Assembly: GCA_025408445.1 (NCBI GenBank)
Contig: JANYIZ010000013.1
Coordinates: 1 to 64,000, forward strand
DNA: 64,000 nt
Direction: 5' to 3'
DNA from: Frigoribacterium sp.
Lineage (GTDB): Bacteria > Actinomycetota > Actinomycetes > Actinomycetales > Microbacteriaceae
How positions within the stretch are numbered: the stretch's first letter is position 1; each line of letters opens with the position of its first letter. Below the pieces are notes generated by a model. That model ran no database searches and had not been told where the DNA came from. It saw only the letters and a program-made list of their open reading frames with translations. The translations under genes were made by a program, and so were the position numbers. Below, piece by piece: positions 7,700 to 58,095 of the stretch.

Positions 7700-9448
7700 T
7701 CAGGAGCGCAACCACACCGCAGTGTCACTCGGAAGCTGCCGCGCGTCGAACTCCTCGGAGGCCACAATGACCTCGCCAGCGGGCAACTCCACCGCGGCAT
7801 CGCCGGTGTTGGCGATCACCGTGACGGAGCCGTTGCGGAAGGCGACCACGGCAACCGGGTAGCCGTCGAGCCACTCGATATCGCCGAGTCCGAGATTTGC
7901 GCGCGACCGTGCTGCCAGCAGGGTGCGATAGAGCTCGAGGGTCGAGCCGGGCAGGCCGCGCTGCGCGTCGCGAGCGTAGGGCGCCCAGTCCTCCGGCTGC
8001 GGGAGCCAGCTTTTGCCACTCGAGCCGAACCCGTAGGCCGGCGCGTCCGCCTCCCAGGGGATCGGCACTCGGCATCCATCGCGCCCGTAGCGCTCGCCGC
8101 TGGTTCGGAACCAGGTGGGGTCTTGGCGTGCCTCGTCGGGGAGATCGATAACTTCGGGAAGGCCCAGCTCTTCGCCCTGGTAGATGTAGGCGCTGCCCGG
8201 CAGTGCGAGCATGAGCGTGGTCGCCGCGCGCGCACGGCGCAGTCCGAGAGAACGTACCGGCTGACCGGGGGATCGCGGCCCAATACCGTGCCCCTGTGGG
8301 TTCTCGGCCGTGACCGCGAGGCGCGAGGCGTGACGGACCACATCGTGGTTGGAGAGCACCCAGGTGCTCGGTGCGCCGACGCCGGTGAAGGCGGCAAGCG
8401 AAGCGTTAATGGTCGCCCGCATGGACGGGCCACTCCAGGGCGTCTCGAGGTAGGAAAAGTTGAATGCCTGCTGCATCTCGTCGGGGCGTACCCAGTGCGC
8501 GAGCTTGTCGAGTGGCTCGACCCAGGCCTCGGCGCAGAGCACGCGATCGCCCTCGTATTCCTCCAGCACGCAGTGCCAGTCGCGGTAGATCTCGTGCACG
8601 CCTTCTTGCGCCCAGTACGGTGGTGTGGTTTCGCCCCTTCCGAGATGGGCGTCGATTTCTGGCTCAAGCCCCAGGCTGCCGCTTCCGCCCATACTGCCGC
8701 CGCCGGCCGATGGCGTGTAATCGGGAAGGCCGGCCGCCTTGATTAGCCCGTGCGCGACATCCACTCGGAAGCCGTCGACGCCGCGGTCAAGCCAAAAGCG
8801 CAGGATGTGGCGGAACTGGTCGCGTACCCACGGGTTCTGCCAGTCGAGGTCGGGCTGCGAGGCGTCGAAGAGGTGAAGGTACCACTGGCCAGGGGTGCCA
8901 TCGGCTTTGGTGAGGCGGCTCCAGGCCGGTCCGCCGAAGACGGATTCCCAGTTGTTGGGTGGCAGCTCGCCGTCGACGCCCGCGCCGTCACGGAACAGGT
9001 AGCGCCCTCGTTCGGGGCTTCCCTCCGGCGAGGCGAGCGCGGATTGGAACCACGCGTGATGGTCTGAGGAGTGGTTGGGTACCAGGTCCACGATGAGCTT
9101 GAGCCCGAGTTCGTGCACGCGCTTCTCGAGCGCGTCGAAGTCGGCGAGGGTTCCGAAGATCGGGTCGACGTCGCAATAGTCGGCCACGTCGTATCCCGCG
9201 TCTTTCTGTGGCGACGTATAAAAGGGCGAGAGCCAGATCGCATCCACCCCGAGTTCCACTAGCGCGGGAAGGCGCTCGGTGACTCCGACGAGGTCGCCAA
9301 GGCCGTCGTCTCCCATGCCGTCGGCGAAGGAGCGAGGGTAAATCTGGTAGATCACCGCGGAGCGCCACCACTGAATTCCGGCGGCGCTGGAAAGGGTGAC
9401 GGACTCGGTTGAGGGCACGGAGGATCCCTGCAGAATGTCGAGGCTCAT
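7700..9448 (-). CDS. GH13 alpha-glucosidase (oligo-1,6-/maltose-type)
   Basis: The 582-residue cytoplasmic glycoside hydrolase probably frees glucose from the non-reducing ends of short alpha-glucans. The GH13 blocks are in order: DLVPNHSS near residue 121, GFRVDVAHG with nucleophile Asp230, CAEAW with acid/base Glu307, and LSNHDVVRH with Asp369. The start WWRSAVIYQIYPRSFADG and the absence of an N-terminal CBM domain fit the alpha-glucosidase subfamilies. No signal peptide is seen. The gene is divergent from a second GH13 gene (9588) across 139 bp that hold a GGAAGCGCTTCC operator-like palindrome. Exact substrate is not decidable from sequence. Confidence 0.92.
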   Translation of the reverse strand: MSLDILQGSSVPSTESVTLSSAAGIQWWRSAVIYQIYPRSFADGMGDDGLGDLVGVTERLPALVELGVDAIWLSPFYTSPQKDAGYDVADYCDVDPIFGTLADFDALEKRVHELGLKLIVDLVPNHSSDHHAWFQSALASPEGSPERGRYLFRDGAGVDGELPPNNWESVFGGPAWSRLTKADGTPGQWYLHLFDASQPDLDWQNPWVRDQFRHILRFWLDRGVDGFRVDVAHGLIKAAGLPDYTPSAGGGSMGGSGSLGLEPEIDAHLGRGETTPPYWAQEGVHEIYRDWHCVLEEYEGDRVLCAEAWVEPLDKLAHWVRPDEMQQAFNFSYLETPWSGPSMRATINASLAAFTGVGAPSTWVLSNHDVVRHASRLAVTAENPQGHGIGPRSPGQPVRSLGLRRARAATTLMLALPGSAYIYQGEELGLPEVIDLPDEARQDPTWFRTSGERYGRDGCRVPIPWEADAPAYGFGSSGKSWLPQPEDWAPYARDAQRGLPGSTLELYRTLLAARSRANLGLGDIEWLDGYPVAVVAFRNGSVTVIANTGDAAVELPAGEVIVASEEFDARQLPSDTAVWLRS

Positions 9449-9587: not shown

Positions 9588-11504
9588 ATGGGCATCGTGC
9601 ACGAGCCGCATCACGACGGTTCTCCCCTCTACGTCTCCGACGCCACGCCCCGACTTGGCGATCGCGTGCGCGTGCGTGTGCGGATCCCGTCGGCTTTCGG
9701 TCCGGTCGATGTCGTACGCACGCGCTCCAATCCCAATCACGAACCGCGGTTCACGATGGCATCCCCCGTGGCGATAGTCGAGGGCTGGGAGTGGTGGGAA
9801 GCGGAGATCGAGGTGGAGAACCTGACCCACGGCTACCGCTTTCTCTTCACACTCGGCGACGGGTCCAACTGTTGGCTCAACGCCACGGGTCTTCACACGA
9901 TCGAGACTCTTGACTCGGAGGACTTCAAGATCCTCGCCCACCCTGCGCCGCCGGAGTGGGCGAAGGCCAGCGTGATGTACTAGGTGTTCCCTGACCGGTT
10001 CGCCCGATCTGCGGATGCCGCGGGGCGCGAACTGCCGGCCTGGGCAGAGCAGGCGCAGTGGAGCGATCCGGTGACGCACGTCGGGCCGCACACGTCGACC
10101 CAGTTTTACGGTAGCGATCTGAAGGGCATTGAGCAGCACCTCGATCACCTCGAGCGCCTCGGCGTCACCATGCCCTATCTCACCCCGGTCTTCCCCGCGC
10201 GGTCCAATCACCGCTACGACGCGCTCTCCTTCGATGAGGTCGATCCCCTTCTCGGCGGGGATGCGGCGCTTATTGCCCTGGTGCATTCGGCGCACGCTCG
10301 CGGTCTCCGGGTGATCGGCGACCTCACCTCGAATCACAGTGGCGACGCGCACGAATGGTTCGAGGCATCCCACCTCAGGCCCGGTACGCCAGAGAGCGCC
10401 TTCTACTACTGGCTGGATGCCGAGCAGCGCGACTACGCGTCGTGGCTGGGCGTGCCGAGCCTTCCCAAGTTCAATTGGAACTCGCCCGGACTGCGGGCTC
10501 GGTTCATCGAGGGACCGGACTCCATCGTGGCGAAGTGGCTGGCACCTCCCTATTCGCTCGACGGCTGGCGCATCGACGTCGCGAACATGACGGGACGCCA
10601 TCTGACCGACGATCTCAATGCCGAAGTACGGGGCATCATCCGGCGCACAATGATCGAGATCAACCCCGACACGATCCTGCTCGGTGAATCGACCAACGAT
10701 GCGACGAGCGATTTTCAGGGCGACGCATGGCACGGCGCGATGACCTACGCCAACTTCACCCGACCGGTGTGGGGCTGGCTGTCGGCCCAGGAGCGCGAAT
10801 CGTCGTACTTCGGTTTGCCGTTCGGCAGGATTCCGTCCTACTCCGGTGAGCAGGTCCTCGCGGCGCATCGCCAGTTTGCGCACGGCTTTCCCTGGCGTGT
10901 GCAGCTGAGCACGATGAACGCTCTCGACACGCATGACACCCCGCGCTTTCTCACGCACGCGATCGACGGCGCCCAGCCGGTGGCTGTCGGGCTGTCAATG
11001 ACGATGCCGGGCATCCCCGTGGTCTTCGCCGGCGACGAGTTCGGCCTGGTCGGTGACGACGGTGAGCACTCACGAACGCCCATACCGTGGGACCAGGTGG
11101 ATGCCGCGGCCCCCACGATCGATCTCTACTCCGATCTCATCCACCTGCGCACCGGACATCCGGCACTCAACGGTGGTGGTATGCGCTGGCTGCATGTCGG
11201 GCGAGAGGTGCTCGTTTTCATCCGAGAGATAGCCAAGGAGTCGGTCCTCGTGATCGCCGCCCGGGGCGCCTACGATGTGTCGCTTCCCGCGCATGCCTTC
11301 GCCGGGATGCCGCGGCCGCTCTACGGGCACGCGACGGCCGAGCGCGGCGGCGCCGGCATCCGCCTGTCTGGAAGTGGTCCGTCGTTCAGCGCGTTCGCGC
11401 TGCCTGGCCTCGCGCTGCCCGACTTCTCTGCGACGGGACCGGTGCTCGAAGTCGAGCCGGAACGTTCACTCCGGCGTACGAAAGGGGTGGCGCGCGGATG
11501 CTAG
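9588..11504 (+). pseudogene. GH13 glycosidase (cyclomaltodextrinase/neopullulanase-like) split by an in-frame amber codon
   Basis: One continuous frame encodes a GH13 enzyme of about 638 residues, interrupted only by TAG at 9981-9983. The first part (9588-9980) is the N-terminal beta-sandwich domain typical of neopullulanase-type enzymes and ends KASVMY. The second part begins VFPDRFA. In the family this junction reads MYQVFPDRF, so TAG replaces a Gln codon (CAG) by one C-to-T change. Downstream catalytic blocks are intact: GWRIDVANM (nucleophile Asp), LLGESTND (Glu) and DTHDTPRF (Asp). The GTG at 9984 could restart translation, but without the N domain. The frame is otherwise undamaged, so the change is recent, a sequencing error, or a readthrough codon. 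Confidence 0.85.
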
Positions 11505-12696: not shown

Positions 12697-13010
12697 AATC
12701 CACAAAGTACCTTACCGGGGGCGAGATGAGTGATTCCGGGGGTGTTGGTGCGCCTTCGTGAGGGGAGGGTGTCCAGGATGTGGTCGCAACGATCGATCGG
12801 GGCGTGGAGGCGCTGCTGGACGCCGGCCTCGACACTCCGGCCACCGTACTTTAGGTGAGAACGGACGACTTCACCCTGGAATGACGGTGGCTGCGGCACG
12901 CCCGCCAGCACTATGCCGGGCCGTTCCCGTTTCGACCCGGCCGATGGCGCCGATCACCAGCTTGGCCCCGACACTGCCTTCGGGGCACACTGCCTTCGCT
13001 TCGGCTCCCC
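12697..13010. other. Intergenic stretch without recognisable gene
   Basis: This stretch holds no supported gene. A short frame (about 12764-12854, +) reads DVVATIDRGVEALLDAGLDT before a TAG and looks like the tail of a decayed gene, but I cannot name it. No promoter or terminator stands out. Confidence 0.4.
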
Positions 13011-13460
13011 TTATGCCGCTGCAGCCAGGATGATCGCCTGTTCGCCAGCAACCCAGGCGAGCATCGCGCATTTGACTCGCGCCGCATATCGGGACACCCC
13101 ACCGAGGGCGACAGCATCGCCGAGCAGTTCTTCATCGGGCTCGATCGTGCCACGTGACCGCATCGCGACGCGGAAGAGCTCGATGCGGGCCGCGAGATCG
13201 GCCGGTGTCAGACCCGGCGCGAGATCGGAGAAGAGCGAAGCGGAGGCCTGGGAGATAGCGCAGCCATGACCCTCCCACCGAATGGCGCGGATGCGATCCG
13301 TTCCAGGCTCCAAGTGCAGTTGCAGAGTGATCTCGTCACCGCAGGTGGGATTGATCTGGTGCGATTCAGCGGCCGCGTGATCTTCAAGGCCGCGACCGTG
13401 CGGGCGGCGCGACAGGTCGAGAATCACTTCCTGGTAGAGGGATTCCATCGCAGAACTCAC
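13011..13460 (-). CDS. sufU: SufU-type Fe-S cluster assembly sulfur-transfer protein
   Basis: The 149-residue protein accepts persulfide sulfur from SufS through a Zn-bound active-site Cys and passes it to the SufBCD scaffold. Conserved residues are Cys40 and Asp42 (NPTCGDE), Cys67 (GHGCAISQAS) and Cys131 (RVKCAMLAW). The region between the last two is long, as in SufU rather than IscU. Its start overlaps the sufS stop by four bases, which indicates translational coupling. The other suf genes (sufBCD) are not in the window. Confidence 0.93.
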   Translation of the reverse strand: MSSAMESLYQEVILDLSRRPHGRGLEDHAAAESHQINPTCGDEITLQLHLEPGTDRIRAIRWEGHGCAISQASASLFSDLAPGLTPADLAARIELFRVAMRSRGTIEPDEELLGDAVALGGVSRYAARVKCAMLAWVAGEQAIILAAAA

Positions 13461-14764
13461 GCGTTCACACCGAAGAACTTTGTCGCATCGGCGAGCGCAT
13501 TGAGAAAATCGTCAATCTCGTTTTCAGTGGTGTAGAGGTAGCCGCTTGCCCTTGTTGACGAGGTGACACCCAACCTGCGATGGAGGGGTTGAGTGCAGTG
13601 ATGGCCGACACGAACCGCGATCGATCGGTCGTCGAGGAACTGGCCGATGTCGTGGGAGTGAACACCCTCGACGTCAAAGCTTGCCAAGCCGACTCGAGCC
13701 TGCCCGATACCCGGGCCGAGGACGGTCACCCCCGGTATCTCGTTCAGCCCGACAACAAGATGCTGCCCGAGAGTCGCTTCGTGCTGGGCGATGCGGTCGA
13801 TTCCGATGTGGTCGAGGTAGTCGACGGCGCTCGCCAGCGCTATCGCCTGCGAAACGCGTTGGGTACCGGCCTCGAACCGATGCGGGGATGGCAGATATTC
13901 TGCGCTGTCCATAGTGACGGTGGTGATCATCGATCCTCCGGTGAGGAATGGCGGCAATGCATTGAGCAGTTCGCTGCGGCCGAATAGCACGCCGATGCCG
14001 GTTGGACCGAGCATCTTATGCCCGGAGAATGCTGCGAAGTCAACATCCAGGGCGGCAAGATCGAGCGGAAGATGCGGCGCAGACTGGCATGCGTCGAGAA
14101 CGGTAAGAGCGCCGACCGAGCGCGCCAGAGCGACCAGTTCCTGCACGGGGTTGATGACGCCGAGCACGTTGGAGACATGTGTGAAGGCAAGGATTCGCGT
14201 GCGCGAGGTGATGAGGCGGGCCGCCTCGTCCATTCGCAGCGTGCCATCTGCGGAAATGGGAATGAAGCGCAACACCGCTCCGGTTCTTGCCGCGAGTTCC
14301 TGCCACGGCACCAGATTGGCGTGGTGCTCCATTTCGGTGACGACGATCTCGTCGCCGGATGCGAGGCGAAATCGCTCCGCTGCCGGTCCACCGCGGCCAG
14401 CGGTCGCGTTACCGATCGCATAGGCGACCAGATTCAGTGCCTCGGTGGCATTGGAGGTCCAGACGATCTCGTCTTCACGCGCACCGACAAAACGAGCGAC
14501 CGTGGCTCGCGCATCCTCGAAACGCTCGGTCGCGAGCGCAGCCAGTGTGTGGGCTCCGCGATGGACCGCCGCATTCTCGCGCTCGTAATATTCGCGTTCG
14601 ACCTCGATGACGGAGCGAGGTTTCTGGGATGTCGCGCCGGAGTCGAGGTAGACGAGGGGGCGCCCATTCACCTCCCGATGAAGGATAGGGAAATCGGCCC
14701 GGAGGGCAGCGATCTCCGAAGAGGTTAGTGTGCGTGGTGATGTTAGCGCGGGGAAGGTTGGCAT
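13457..14764 (-). CDS. sufS: SufS-type cysteine desulfurase
   Basis: The 435-residue PLP enzyme removes sulfur from L-cysteine and forms an enzyme persulfide for Fe-S cluster synthesis. The PLP-binding Lys250 lies in FSGHKMLGPTGIG and the persulfide Cys390 in VRVGHHCTQP. The N-terminal LDSGATSQKP and TSNATEALNLVA blocks are standard for class V aminotransferases. The length is slightly above the usual ~405 because of a short N-terminal extension and an insert near residues 120-133. It is first in a two-gene operon with sufU. The upstream 866 bp have no intact gene. Confidence 0.95.
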   Translation of the reverse strand: MPTFPALTSPRTLTSSEIAALRADFPILHREVNGRPLVYLDSGATSQKPRSVIEVEREYYERENAAVHRGAHTLAALATERFEDARATVARFVGAREDEIVWTSNATEALNLVAYAIGNATAGRGGPAAERFRLASGDEIVVTEMEHHANLVPWQELAARTGAVLRFIPISADGTLRMDEAARLITSRTRILAFTHVSNVLGVINPVQELVALARSVGALTVLDACQSAPHLPLDLAALDVDFAAFSGHKMLGPTGIGVLFGRSELLNALPPFLTGGSMITTVTMDSAEYLPSPHRFEAGTQRVSQAIALASAVDYLDHIGIDRIAQHEATLGQHLVVGLNEIPGVTVLGPGIGQARVGLASFDVEGVHSHDIGQFLDDRSIAVRVGHHCTQPLHRRLGVTSSTRASGYLYTTENEIDDFLNALADATKFFGVNA

Positions 14765-15424
14765 GATGACGGCCTCAAATTTCTGTACCGTTCCATGCTA
14801 ACCGCGTGCTGTCGAGCGAATTCAAATGTGAGCTTTTTGCCCCGTCGAAGTATTTCTTCGGATGGCCGGGGGTATTCAGCCGGGCATTGCGAAACTTCCT
14901 CTCCGTTGTCGCAGAGCACGCGACGGATGCTCGCGTCGACGCCTATCGAGTGCCGGAGCTCGAGAAGGGGCTACGCAGTGGTGCCGTGAATGTCACGCCC
15001 GATGTGATGGGTCTCACTGGTCATTCGAAGCCGCCCCGACAAACACCACACCGTCCGCGATGGCCTCCTCAAGGGAAAAGAACTTCACCCGTAGGTGCGC
15101 AGCGGCGAAGCTCGACATCGTGGGGTCGTCGCCTTCGCGTTCCGTACCGTGACGACGGCCGCCGCTGTAGTCACTGGTCGCTGTTAGGCACGGGACTACA
15201 TCGTCACGAATCGGTGGATGCTTGGCCGTGCGACGCGCGCTCCCGGGGCATTCGCGAAGTTCGGTGGCGCGAGTATCGAGTTTGCGAATCTCACTCGAAA
15301 CAGAACTCGTGTGAGTCAGCCACGATCGAATTCCGCTCTGACTCTTTCGAGGAGGACCGGTCGCTTCGGACGGGGCCTGAGGGTCTGATCAGAACGGTTT
15401 CGAATGACCAGCGAGACCCATCTC
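14765..15424. other. Gene-poor stretch with decayed sequence
   Basis: No intact gene is supported. A + frame at 14806-15432 covers the region but changes character midway and runs through both inverted repeats, so I treat it as spurious. On the minus strand two short pieces look protein-like: one near 14945-14880 reading RRVLCDNGEEVSQ, reminiscent of an IS481/IS3 transposase core, and one near 15125-15020 ending GVVFVGAASNDQ at a stop inside the left repeat. Confidence 0.4.
15006..15422. mobile_element. Possible insertion-sequence remnant with 24-bp inverted ends
   Basis: The ends 15006-15029 (GATGGGTCTC...CATTCGAA) and 15399-15422 are inverted copies that differ at one base. The similarity continues a few bases inward. 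Outside the left copy the sequence TGTCACGCCCGATGT is of the type seen at IS481-family ends. The 370 bp between them carry no intact transposase, so this would be an internally deleted, non-autonomous copy. No target duplication was identified. The family assignment is inference. Confidence 0.45.
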
Positions 15425-19794: not shown

Positions 19795-21123
19795 ATGATC
19801 AACAATCTCAAAAATGCGCCCGGAACCGGGAAACTCGCCGCCGGTCGGACTGACGTCGCTGAGGTCGTCAGCGGCATCCTTACGGATGTCCGTCTGCGTG
19901 GCGATATCGCCGTGCGGGAAGCGTCCGAGCGTTTTGACAAGTGGACGCCGGAAAGCTTCCGGCTGTCGCCGGAGGAGATCGTTGCGATCGTCGCCGGTGT
20001 TCCGCAGCAGGTGATCGACGACATCGCGTTCGTGCAGGCCAATGTTCGTCGCTTCGCCGAGCACCAGCGGGCATCGCTCACCGACTTCGAGGTGGAGACG
20101 ATGCCCGGGGTATTCCTCGGCCAGCGAAATATTCCGGTGTCGGCCGTCGGTGCCTACGTACCCGGCGGTCGATATCCGCTCACCGCCTCCGCCCATATGA
20201 CGATCGTTACAGCGAAGGTGGCTGGAGTACCCCGCGTGATCGCCTGCACGCCGCCCATTCGCGGTGAGATTCCCGCGGCGACGGTGGCGGCCATGGTCAT
20301 GGCTGGCGCGGACGAGATCTATCTACTCGGCGGGGTACAGGCGATGGCTGCCATGGCCATCGGCACCGAGACGATGACGCGGGTGGATATGATTGCCGGC
20401 CCTGGGAACGCCTATGTCGCTGAGGCGAAGCGACAGTTGTTCGGTGAGGTCGGAATCGACCTTTTCGCCGGCCCCACCGAGATCCTCGTGATTGCCGACG
20501 ACTCGGCAGATCCATTCGTGGTGGCGGTCGACCTGCTGAGCCAGGCGGAGCACGGCCCCGATTCTCCCGCGATCCTGGTGACGACGAGTGAACCACTCGC
20601 CCGGGATGCGCTCACTCACATCGATACCTTGCTAGTTGACATGCCGACCCGCGACTTCGCGGCTCCGGCCTGGAATGACCACGGCCAGGTGCTGGTCGTC
20701 GACTCTCTCGACGAGGCCTTTGAGGTCGCGAATAGCTTCGCCTCCGAGCACGTGCAGGTGCTCACTCGTGATCCGCGCCAGGCGCTCGAGAAGATGCACG
20801 ACTTCGGGGCGCTCTTCCTCGGCGAGGGCACCTGCGTCTCCTACGGCGACAAGGTTATCGGCACCAACCACGTTCTGCCCACCCGTGGCAGTTCCCGTTT
20901 TACCGGTGGACTCTGGGTCGGTAAATACCTAAAGACCGTCACGTACCAGGAAGTCACCGATCGTGCATCGAGTGCTCTTCTCGGTGAGGTTTGTGGACGA
21001 GCTGCCCGAATCGAGCTGTTCGAGGGCCACGCCCGCTCAGGAGACGTGCGCGCCGCGAAGTACGCGGGAGCCGCCCTTTCGTGGAGCGAGCACCAATTCG
21101 AACTCGAGCCCGAAGGTGCCTAA
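19795..21123 (+). CDS. Histidinol dehydrogenase family protein, catabolic paralogue 1
   Basis: The 442-residue Zn- and NAD-dependent dehydrogenase is of the HisD fold. HisD oxidises a primary alcohol to a carboxylate in two NAD+ steps. Family residues are retained: Gln and His in LSQAEHGPDSP, the catalytic Glu-His in SEHVQVLT, and Asp in SYGDKVIGTNHVLP. A C-terminal His is in FEGHARSGD. No other his gene is nearby; it follows the transporter and SnoaL genes and precedes an SDR, so it should act on an imported alcohol rather than histidinol. HpsN, which oxidises dihydroxypropanesulfonate, is a known precedent for such paralogues. A second paralogue is at 26842. Confidence 0.9.
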   Translation: MINNLKNAPGTGKLAAGRTDVAEVVSGILTDVRLRGDIAVREASERFDKWTPESFRLSPEEIVAIVAGVPQQVIDDIAFVQANVRRFAEHQRASLTDFEVETMPGVFLGQRNIPVSAVGAYVPGGRYPLTASAHMTIVTAKVAGVPRVIACTPPIRGEIPAATVAAMVMAGADEIYLLGGVQAMAAMAIGTETMTRVDMIAGPGNAYVAEAKRQLFGEVGIDLFAGPTEILVIADDSADPFVVAVDLLSQAEHGPDSPAILVTTSEPLARDALTHIDTLLVDMPTRDFAAPAWNDHGQVLVVDSLDEAFEVANSFASEHVQVLTRDPRQALEKMHDFGALFLGEGTCVSYGDKVIGTNHVLPTRGSSRFTGGLWVGKYLKTVTYQEVTDRASSALLGEVCGRAARIELFEGHARSGDVRAAKYAGAALSWSEHQFELEPEGA

Positions 21124-26841: not shown

Positions 26842-28176
26842 GTGCTACATACCGACGCAGTTCTTGCCCGTCTCGACGGCCAGTTTTCCGTATACAAATC
26901 ACCGAGCGTCATCGCTCCGGCCGCCCAGCGAAACCCTGCTGTCATCGAGAAAGTCACTTCGATGCTCGCCGACATCCAGATCGAGGGCCTCGACGCGGTG
27001 CGCCGTTACGCGGCAGAGCTTGACCGGTGGGACGGCACCGACTTTGAAATCTCGGCCGGGGAGATCGCCTCGAGTGGAGGCCTACTTGCCCCCGAACTGA
27101 AGACTGCGATTGAACTCGGCGCAGAGCGGACCCGTGCGTTCGCCGAGGCGCAGCGCAACCGTCTGCACGACTTCGAGGTGGAGCTGGTTCCCGGCGTTAT
27201 CACCGGGCAACGCTACATACCCGTGGGTTCGGTGGGCGCGTACCTCCCGGCCGGCCAATTCCCTCTTACCGCCAGCGCATTCATGACCATTGGGGTGGCG
27301 AAGGCCGCGGGGGTGCCGAACGTTATCGCCTGCACCCCTCCCGGGCTGGACGGTAAGCCGAACGCCGCTGTGCTCTACGCCGCGTACGTTTCCGGTGTTG
27401 ACCGCGTCTTCTGCCTCGGCGGTGTACAGGCCCTCGCCTCCATGGCGTACGGGCTTTTCACCGGGGTGCCGGTCGACATGCTCGTCGGCGCGGGGAACGC
27501 ATTCGTTGCGGAAGCGAAACGCCAGCTCTTCGGTATTGTGACGATAGACCTTCTCGCCGGACCCTCCGAGGTCGCGGTGATCGCCGACGAGAGCGCAGAC
27601 GCCGAGATCGTCGCCGCCGATCTGCTCGGCCAGGCCGAGCACGGTGTCAACTCTCCCGCCGCGCTCATCACAACGTCGCCGGAGCTCGCCGCGGCTGTGT
27701 TGACCGCCGTGGAAAAGCAGCTCGAAACCCTGTCGACTGCGCACATCACGGGTCCGGCCTGGCGGGACTTCGGATCGATCACCGTTGCGGACAACGCCGA
27801 TGTCGCCATCGAACTCATGGACGATCTGGCGCCAGAACACCTCGAACTCATCACGAAGGACGATGACTACTATTTCGAGCGTCTTCGCAACTACGGCTCG
27901 CTTTTCATTGGAGCATGGAGCACCGTCGCTTACTCGGACAAAGGAATGGCTGGTACGAACCACGTGCTGCCGACCGCGGGTGGCGCCAAACACAGTGCGG
28001 GCCTCTCGGTTTCGCGCTTCCTCAAGCCCCTTACCTTCCAACGCGTGTCGCGCGAGGCCACGCCTGCTCTCGCCGAGGCGGTAGCGGTGATCTCTGCATC
28101 CGAGGGGATGTCAGCCCACCAGGCCACCGCGACGATGCGCCTCGACAGGTTCCAGCCCGATCCTCTCGCCGACTAA
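26842..28176 (+). CDS. Histidinol dehydrogenase family protein, catabolic paralogue 2
   Basis: The 444-residue HisD-fold enzyme keeps the family residues: GQAEHGVNSP, PEHLELITKDD, AYSDKGMAGTNHVLP and GMSAHQATA for the Zn and catalytic sites. It clearly differs from paralogue 1 at 19795, so the two may handle different alcohols or form a hetero-oligomer. Neither is near his biosynthesis genes. It has its own LysR-dependent promoter and GTG start with no ribosome site, in keeping with a leaderless message. It converges on the carbon-nitrogen hydrolase gene with 28 bp between stops. Confidence 0.9.
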   Translation: MLHTDAVLARLDGQFSVYKSPSVIAPAAQRNPAVIEKVTSMLADIQIEGLDAVRRYAAELDRWDGTDFEISAGEIASSGGLLAPELKTAIELGAERTRAFAEAQRNRLHDFEVELVPGVITGQRYIPVGSVGAYLPAGQFPLTASAFMTIGVAKAAGVPNVIACTPPGLDGKPNAAVLYAAYVSGVDRVFCLGGVQALASMAYGLFTGVPVDMLVGAGNAFVAEAKRQLFGIVTIDLLAGPSEVAVIADESADAEIVAADLLGQAEHGVNSPAALITTSPELAAAVLTAVEKQLETLSTAHITGPAWRDFGSITVADNADVAIELMDDLAPEHLELITKDDDYYFERLRNYGSLFIGAWSTVAYSDKGMAGTNHVLPTAGGAKHSAGLSVSRFLKPLTFQRVSREATPALAEAVAVISASEGMSAHQATATMRLDRFQPDPLAD

Positions 28177-33519: not shown

Positions 33520-33841
33520 CCTGATGTTCCGGCAATGTGGTGTCGATCTGGTGCGCCCCGGTGAGGTGGGCGAGCTGGATGAGGATGCCGCCAACGTCTC
33601 CATTCGCGCCGTGCAATAGGCTCGTCTGACCGATCTTCCGGGGAATTATCCTTTCGGTGGGTGCGGTGAGACCACCCGTCACAACGCTGGGGTCCGCGGG
33701 CTGCGCCAACCGAGCACGATGAACACGAGAACGTTCGGGTCGATCGCATGAGGTACCCCGGCGGGCGCACCTCCCCCTCCTTGCGCCCCCGCCACGTCAC
33801 GAAACGCTCGCGGCGGCAAGATCACCTCGCGGAGGGAGTCA
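33520..33841 (-). pseudogene. Decayed quinone oxidoreductase (MDR superfamily), cut at the palindrome centre
   Basis: A frame at 33709-33540 reads IGQTSLLHGANGDVGG and ILIQLAHLTGAHQIDTT, the nucleotide-binding start of zeta-crystallin-like quinone reductases (usual form HGAxGGVGxxAVQLAK). In another frame nearer the centre LPPRAFRDVAGA resembles the substrate-domain segment that should precede it. Frames change, the glycine motif is altered, and everything N-terminal is missing because the sequence folds back at 33841. After about 33520 the similarity ends. Confidence 0.5.
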
Positions 33842-34163
33842 TGACTCCCTCCGCGAGGTGATCTTGCCGCCGCGAGCGTTTCGTGACGTGGCGGGGGCGC
33901 AAGGAGGGGGAGGTGCGCCCGCCGGGGTACCTCATGCGATCGACCCGAACGTTCTCGTGTTCATCGTGCTCGGTTGGCGCAGCCCGCGGACCCCAGCGTT
34001 GTGACGGGTGGTCTCACCGCACCCACCGAAAGGATAATTCCCCGGAAGATCGGTCAGACGAGCCTATTGCACGGCGCGAATGGAGACGTTGGCGGCATCC
34101 TCATCCAGCTCGCCCACCTCACCGGGGCGCACCAGATCGACACCACATTGCCGGAACATCAGG
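33842..34163 (+). pseudogene. Mirror copy: decayed quinone oxidoreductase
   Basis: Exact mirror of 33520-33841. The two remnants meet head to head at the symmetry axis, so each lacks the same N-terminal part. Confidence 0.5.
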
Positions 34164-56178: not shown

Positions 56179-58095
56179 CTAGCATCCGCGCGCCACCCCT
56201 TTCGTACGCCGGAGTGAACGTTCCGGCTCGACTTCGAGCACCGGTCCCGTCGCAGAGAAGTCGGGCAGCGCGAGGCCAGGCAGCGCGAACGCGCTGAACG
56301 ACGGACCACTTCCAGACAGGCGGATGCCGGCGCCGCCGCGCTCGGCCGTCGCGTGCCCGTAGAGCGGCCGCGGCATCCCGGCGAAGGCATGCGCGGGAAG
56401 CGACACATCGTAGGCGCCCCGGGCGGCGATCACGAGGACCGACTCCTTGGCTATCTCTCGGATGAAAACGAGCACCTCTCGCCCGACATGCAGCCAGCGC
56501 ATACCACCACCGTTGAGTGCCGGATGTCCGGTGCGCAGGTGGATGAGATCGGAGTAGAGATCGATCGTGGGGGCCGCGGCATCCACCTGGTCCCACGGTA
56601 TGGGCGTTCGTGAGTGCTCACCGTCGTCACCGACCAGGCCGAACTCGTCGCCGGCGAAGACCACGGGGATGCCCGGCATCGTCATTGACAGCCCGACAGC
56701 CACCGGCTGGGCGCCGTCGATCGCGTGCGTGAGAAAGCGCGGGGTGTCATGCGTGTCGAGAGCGTTCATCGTGCTCAGCTGCACACGCCAGGGAAAGCCG
56801 TGCGCAAACTGGCGATGCGCCGCGAGGACCTGCTCACCGGAGTAGGACGGAATCCTGCCGAACGGCAAACCGAAGTACGACGATTCGCGCTCCTGGGCCG
56901 ACAGCCAGCCCCACACCGGTCGGGTGAAGTTGGCGTAGGTCATCGCGCCGTGCCATGCGTCGCCCTGAAAATCGCTCGTCGCATCGTTGGTCGATTCACC
57001 GAGCAGGATCGTGTCGGGGTTGATCTCGATCATTGTGCGCCGGATGATGCCCCGTACTTCGGCATTGAGATCGTCGGTCAGATGGCGTCCCGTCATGTTC
57101 GCGACGTCGATGCGCCAGCCGTCGAGCGAATAGGGAGGTGCCAGCCACTTCGCCACGATGGAGTCCGGTCCCTCGATGAACCGAGCCCGCAGTCCGGGCG
57201 AGTTCCAATTGAACTTGGGAAGGCTCGGCACGCCCAGCCACGACGCGTAGTCGCGCTGCTCGGCATCCAGCCAGTAGTAGAAGGCGCTCTCTGGCGTACC
57301 GGGCCTGAGGTGGGATGCCTCGAACCATTCGTGCGCGTCGCCACTGTGATTCGAGGTGAGGTCGCCGATCACCCGGAGACCGCGAGCGTGCGCCGAATGC
57401 ACCAGGGCAATAAGCGCCGCATCCCCGCCGAGAAGGGGATCGACCTCATCGAAGGAGAGCGCGTCGTAGCGGTGATTGGACCGCGCGGGGAAGACCGGGG
57501 TGAGATAGGGCATGGTGACGCCGAGGCGCTCGAGGTGATCGAGGTGCTGCTCAATGCCCTTCAGATCGCTACCGTAAAACTGGGTCGACGTGTGCGGCCC
57601 GACGTGCGTCACCGGATCGCTCCACTGCGCCTGCTCTGCCCAGGCCGGCAGTTCGCGCCCCGCGGCATCCGCAGATCGGGCGAACCGGTCAGGGAACACC
57701 TAGTACATCACGCTGGCCTTCGCCCACTCCGGCGGCGCAGGGTGGGCGAGGATCTTGAAGTCCTCCGAGTCAAGAGTCTCGATCGTGTGAAGACCCGTGG
57801 CGTTGAGCCAACAGTTGGACCCGTCGCCGAGTGTGAAGAGAAAGCGGTAGCCGTGGGTCAGGTTCTCCACCTCGATCTCCGCTTCCCACCACTCCCAGCC
57901 CTCGACTATCGCCACGGGGGATGCCATCGTGAACCGCGGTTCGTGATTGGGATTGGAGCGCGTGCGTACGACATCGACCGGACCGAAAGCCGACGGGATC
58001 CGCACACGCACGCGCACGCGATCGCCAAGTCGGGGCGTGGCGTCGGAGACGTAGAGGGGAGAACCGTCGTGATGCGGCTCGTGCACGATGCCCAT
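56179..58095 (-). pseudogene. Mirror copy: GH13 gene split by an amber codon
   Basis: Identical to 9588-11504, including the TAG (57702-57700 on this strand) that replaces the Gln codon of MYQVFPDRF. Confidence 0.85.

Follow-up and report, generated by a model that had tools for sequence, protein, structure and literature searches.

The window analysed here is a stretch of 64,000 bases, corresponding to bases 1-64000 of the 67,682-base contig C13 in a draft genome of 3.05 Mb (220 contigs, 89% complete). On its forward strand, an ATG codon at 9588 opens a gene of the GH13 family whose frame extends over 638 codons and is open apart from an in-frame TAG at codon 132 (9981..9983), which is included in that count. 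The amber codon lies exactly where the preliminary description had placed it. It separates an N-terminal part of 131 codons (9588..9980), which covers the N domain, runs into the start of barrel strand 1, and corresponds to positions 12-125 of the PRK10785 model, from a catalytic part of 506 codons (9984..11501, or 9984-11504 as an open stretch including the terminal stop). The catalytic part opens with a GTG (Val) codon at 9984-9986, directly after the premature stop. A divergent GH13 gene next to it, on the reverse strand (7700..9448), is intact and served as a control.

The 3′ end of the gene has probably shifted as well. Counted from the FPDRF anchor, the stop comes after 506 codons here and after 488-497 in 14 relatives (two with identical sequence), and the sister species G006 has a TAA where the gene described here has GAA. 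Because of these two differences, the last 14 codons (window 11460-11504) probably lie past its former end, in which case the present terminal TAG (11502..11504) replaced an older stop that was lost.

The GH13 enzyme and its relatives

When the amber codon is read through, the translated protein falls within the GH13 alpha-amylase family: residues 132-503 match the Pfam model Alpha-amylase (PF00128) at 1.9e-40, with 139.9 bits against a curated cut-off of 22, and the part after the stop still matches by itself at 8.6e-40. Among NCBIfam models, PRK10785 (maltodextrin glucosidase) scores best, covering residues 22-571 with 393.4 bits, short of its equivalog cut-off of 568; the N and C parts, searched separately, match adjoining pieces of it. 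A chance open reading frame was ruled out by the scores for the two models and by this division of PRK10785 between the two parts. The motifs GDLTSNHSG, DGWRIDVANM, LLGEST, and LDTHD, which we take to be those of the GH13 catalytic regions, are all present, and D330, E367, and D450, presumably the catalytic residues, are invariant in an alignment of 36 sequences, in agreement with the earlier statement that the catalytic residues are retained. Judged by its sequence, the gene belongs with the maltodextrin glucosidases and neopullulanases of the GH13 family.

The best solved relatives by sequence are two structures of Escherichia coli MalZ (7vt9 and 5bn7, at 6.1e-81 and 7.2e-81), with the Klebsiella acarbose hydrolase also among the nearest. 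MalZ matches the AlphaFold2 model of the protein in fold (TM 0.79/0.84 at 31% identity), whereas the gene described here stays under the cut-off of the MalZ family model (393 versus 568 bits) and is interrupted by TAG. The top structural matches are the Klebsiella grimontii acarbose hydrolase Apg and the Thermoactinomyces vulgaris alpha-amylase I (neopullulanase 1), with TM values of 0.77-0.85; identity to these enzymes is 24-29%.

In the same model, which was built from 36 sequences and has a mean pLDDT of 83.7, barrel strand 1 is predicted to span residues 129-133, with residue 132 inside it. All 36 aligned sequences share Tyr131, and the 35 that come from relatives all have Gln132. This placement bears on the suggestion that, after termination at the TAG, the adjacent GTG could start a separate catalytic polypeptide. 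The GTG indeed adjoins the stop, the C part alone keeps its Alpha-amylase match, and the lacI amber is reportedly a precedent for such a restart. Prokaryotic re-initiation is discussed in PMC5972666. However, the GTG simply encodes Val and is found in the sister species too, after an intact Gln codon; the anti-Shine-Dalgarno duplex before it amounts to -2.0 kcal/mol, compared with -5.6 kcal/mol at the true start; and the product, according to the model, would begin inside strand 1, miss the N domain, and could be a damaged enzyme at best. Thus, although the adjacency is real and re-initiation is possible in principle, we regard it as highly improbable at this site, given the start inside strand 1 and the poor Shine-Dalgarno-like pairing.

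Glutamine, which the preliminary description had named as the replaced residue, is present at codon 132 in each of the 77 other alignment rows (75 distinct sequences). The G006 gene, 90% identical, has CAG at this codon, and CAA occupies it in three of the loci compared. Searches flagged stops within many orthologues of relatives, but these proved to be terminal wherever the sequence was examined, a check that covered 20 rows from the family, all with stops at the end only, and five members of the genus, in each of which the stop closes the gene and codon 132 encodes Gln. Full-length orthologues are lacking from 3 of the 13 genomes of the genus (one of the three being only 64% complete), and 135 of the 199 family genomes sampled yielded no match at the strict threshold of E <= 1e-120. 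Because it is so often absent, the gene is, on its distribution, dispensable and patchily kept. Pseudogenes are recognized by a disabling change within a frame that otherwise retains its homology, and the amber codon is such a change.

The palindromic contig

Contig C13 is identical to its own reverse complement: its two halves, of 33,841 bases each, form a perfect palindrome, and every gene beyond 33,842 has its mirror image on the left arm. Consequently, the GH13 gene reappears on the reverse strand at 56179..58095, with its stop at 57700-57702. At the contig center lies a perfect palindrome of 44 bases (33820..33863), one copy of a dispersed repeat. Searches with the 22-base core of this repeat at up to 3 mismatches found seven sites in the present genome, five in G006, and six in the near-complete genome G003, whereas a reversed control of the core had no match in any of 13 genomes. 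The repeat, located also at L157 1-43, occurs in several genomes of the genus, where longer matches extend over about 75 bases.

Another contig of the same genome, C171, begins with the first 43 bases of the central palindrome and continues into different sequence. G003 has the last genes of the arm and C171-like sequence in one direction, with about 3 kb between them; in G006, a palindrome copy and, after it, C171-like sequence come next to the aminotransferase gene of the arm (12983-14833), whereas the 19 kb that separate the aminotransferase gene from the palindrome on the arm here are absent from that place. G006 thus loosely backs an order running from the arm through the palindrome to C171-like sequence. 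The best explanation of these sequence comparisons is that the assembly folded back at a short dispersed palindrome and so produced the second half of the contig, and the mirror copy of the gene consequently provides no independent support for the stop; we rejected it as confirmation. A literature search on palindromic contigs with MEGAHIT produced no match. The lesson for readers of this window is that any gene seen twice in it is a single sequence that the assembly has mirrored. The same arm also carries two histidinol-dehydrogenase-like paralogues (window 19795-21120 and 26842-28173), the former near ABC-transporter, binding-protein, and SnoaL-like genes.

A contig misjoined at its center, in a draft assembly of 220 pieces, lends some credit to the view that the amber codon is a consensus or strain-mixing error and that the gene is intact in the living population. 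Nevertheless, a fold-back affects a join rather than base calls, and none of the nine neighboring genes compared with G006 has a broken frame.

Interrupted genes elsewhere in the genome

The single stop in the GH13 gene has to be viewed against the frequency of such stops in the whole genome. In a comparison with G006 orthologues, 4 of 109 genes contain an internal stop, in all cases TAG: the GH13 gene (in place of Gln), a flavohaemoglobin gene (Gln), an MFS transporter gene (Tyr), and a methyltransferase-like gene (Glu), the last with a one-base deletion about 26 bases further on. Two of the 109 genes carry a frameshift pair. The reverse comparison, from G006 genes, gave no frameshifts and one stop in 102 genes, which is the old terminal one of the GH13 gene. 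With that terminal stop set aside, the contrast (4/109 versus 0/102; one-sided p 0.07, focal gene included) favors an error in the assembly; however, the base errors needed to produce these stops would, by a rough estimate, amount to several in 10,000 bases, which is high for an assembly.

A codon-usage scan combined with Pfam searches widened the set. The scan produced 42 candidates in the present genome, of which 37 were tested against Pfam and five dropped since G006 shares the stop. A single domain spans the stop in 5 of the 37, always a TAG: the flavohaemoglobin and MFS genes were recovered, and genes for an NRAMP-like transporter, an acyl-CoA dehydrogenase, and a mutator-type transposase were newly found. 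Among these 37 candidates, no TGA or TAA falls within a domain, and no domain spans any stop in the controls (10 of 17 candidates tested in G006, 20 of 23 in G003). On the assumption that the remaining control candidates are negative, the difference of 5 versus 0 spanned stops in 832 and 845 kb has a p value of 0.03. Because the scan misses the GH13 gene, it undercounts. Together with the methyltransferase-like gene and its added deletion, six further TAG-interrupted genes are thus known, at L216 4230 (-), L215 19434 (+), L217 7469 (+), L205 3548 (+), L248 17752 (+), and L254 3835 (+).

Unfiltered tblastn searches returned numerous TAG, TGA, and TAA stops in this genome as well as in G003 and G006, mostly in frames judged to be non-coding; a codon-usage filter of our own removed these. 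After filtering, G006 compared with G003 retained one TAG with weak flanks (5 and 5 of 15 residues identical) over 24 genes, and the present genome compared with G003 retained the GH13 stop only, plus one frameshift pair, over 44 genes. Three of 41 matches in an MFS search contain stops. One is the TAG-interrupted gene, and another, with a TGA on contig C110, was read as part of a frameshifted gene; the third, with a TGA and a TAA on C137, was rejected, having turned out on translation to be an intact gene beside another. No stops were found in 42 PF00528 matches, nor in PF00005 matches among the matches listed. Two genes of the same genome show apparent frameshifts, near 5560 of L249 and in L201 (C110 14900-17200), one of them an MFS transporter gene. 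Read plainly, these data point to an increased number of broken genes, or of erroneous bases, in the draft genome.

All seven accepted interruptions, in 832 kb, are TAG, with no accepted TGA or TAA among them. This uniformity, along with the normal constraint on the GH13 gene, speaks for amber readthrough or suppression, that is, for UAG being decoded as an amino acid often enough to yield the full-length enzyme. The excess is mild, though: about 57% of nonsense mutations are expected to give TAG in the codon usage of this genome, so that six of six, leaving out the GH13 gene, has a probability of 0.034 (0.57^6) for a pattern found after looking. In the four genes interrupted relative to G006, the residues replaced are not of one kind (Gln, Gln, Tyr, Glu), and frameshifts occur in the same genome too. 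On the arm, 23 genes contain 227 Gln codons, none of them TAG, but this count was set aside as circular, the genes having been picked as open frames.

The translation machinery also argues against readthrough. The RF1 protein is whole (463.8 against a cut-off of 423.25) and has PAT and GGQ motifs, which we take to be its functional ones. The preliminary description had proposed looking for suppressor tRNA genes: no CTA anticodon was found among 38 tRNA matches (35 without mirror copies) in this 89% complete genome, whose tRNA list is incomplete, since ARAGORN, run on part of the genome, found one Leu tRNA outside the list and one tRNA of unsettled anticodon. A CTA-tRNA pattern likewise matched nothing in this genome, in G003, or in G006. 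TAG is a normal terminator, ending 179 of 548 genes here (33%) compared with 84 of 277 in G003 (30%) and 94 of 306 in G006 (31%), and back-up stops are no commoner after TAG than after TGA (31/179 versus 64/302). Relative to the nearer G006, TAG is not avoided, with five of 86 pairs having TAG here and another stop there and three the reverse. Only the comparison with the more distant G003 leans towards avoidance, TAG terminators appearing lost more often than gained (another stop here and TAG there in eight of 31 pairs, the reverse in four). In a recoded or amber-suppressing genome, RF1 would be lost or damaged, or TAG avoided as terminator; here RF1 is intact and TAG terminates genes at the usual rate.

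Known stop reassignments in bacteria concern UGA, according to PMC8629427, whose part on yeast ascribes some inferred stop reassignments to stops in pseudogenes. The GH13 gene shares with such systems an in-frame stop at a conserved position; in contrast to them, the tests described above give no support for reassignment. Recoding or efficient suppression is unlikely, and readthrough sufficient for a full-length GH13 enzyme very unlikely. We give similarly little credence to a milder version, in which UAG termination would be leaky in this lineage while UAG remains the normal stop, and several genes, including those for the GH13 enzyme, flavohaemoglobin, the NRAMP-like and MFS transporters, acyl-CoA dehydrogenase, and the transposase, would tolerate single in-frame ambers.

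Age and origin of the amber codon

The GH13 gene otherwise looks to be under selection. Compared with G006, dN/dS is 0.214 for the N part and 0.144 for the C part, with 0.053-0.255 for the nine neighboring genes. Of the amino acid replacements, 11 were placed on the lineage studied here, 14 on that of G006, and 23 on neither; by a rough estimate, a neutral gene would have gained about 190 on one branch, so that the constraint-free share of the branch is at most about 5-6%. Large-effect replacements at otherwise fixed sites number five here versus one in the sister, and at least as many are found in 5 of 50 other close pairs. Changes at residues 176, 196, and 301 looked suggestive of decay after the stop, but the overall asymmetry is not significant (p 0.19), and with those 5 of 50 pairs, decay was not accepted. 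The neighbor-gene control gave 7 versus 9 changes, with 19 unassigned (only 9 outgroups). No excess indicating relaxed constraint after loss was thus seen in dN/dS, in the placed replacements, or in the fixed-site changes, so that a loss, if real, would have to be very recent. Because the gene otherwise appears constrained, the stop would be either very recent or not real.

The lack of decay beyond the stop is also what an assembly error would produce, and an error of consensus or strain mixing, leaving an intact gene in the living population, is a possible though rather doubtful explanation. On balance, we consider it probable, from comparison of sequences, that an ordinary recent nonsense mutation inactivated a dispensable GH13 gene of the maltodextrin-glucosidase/neopullulanase kind. 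We infer that the TAG base is true in the cell, although it is known from one draft assembly. The presence of other disabled genes in the genome, frameshifts among them, favors the mutation, whereas the restriction of accepted interruptions to TAG and the misjoined contig count against it. Of the three options offered at the outset, null mutation and base error both fit the data; readthrough is not supported, with RF1 whole, no CTA tRNA found in an incomplete tRNA list, and TAG serving as a normal terminator. Recent nonsense pseudogenes of bacteria share with this gene the single stop, the open remainder, and the patchy presence, but differ in that the base here is known from a draft assembly only.

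In this reading, a recent single-base mutation in the source bacterium would have inactivated a dispensable enzyme; translation would end at the TAG, releasing a fragment of 131 residues, and neither piece of the enzyme would be active. More generally, anyone who considers recoding on the strength of single in-frame stops in a draft genome should first set them against the genome-wide rate of such stops. Should the cluster of genes interrupted by amber codons prove real and expressed, leaky UAG termination in a free-living bacterium would become testable. If the stop is a true null allele, it would be a further case in which a sugar-use gene of patchy occurrence has been lost.
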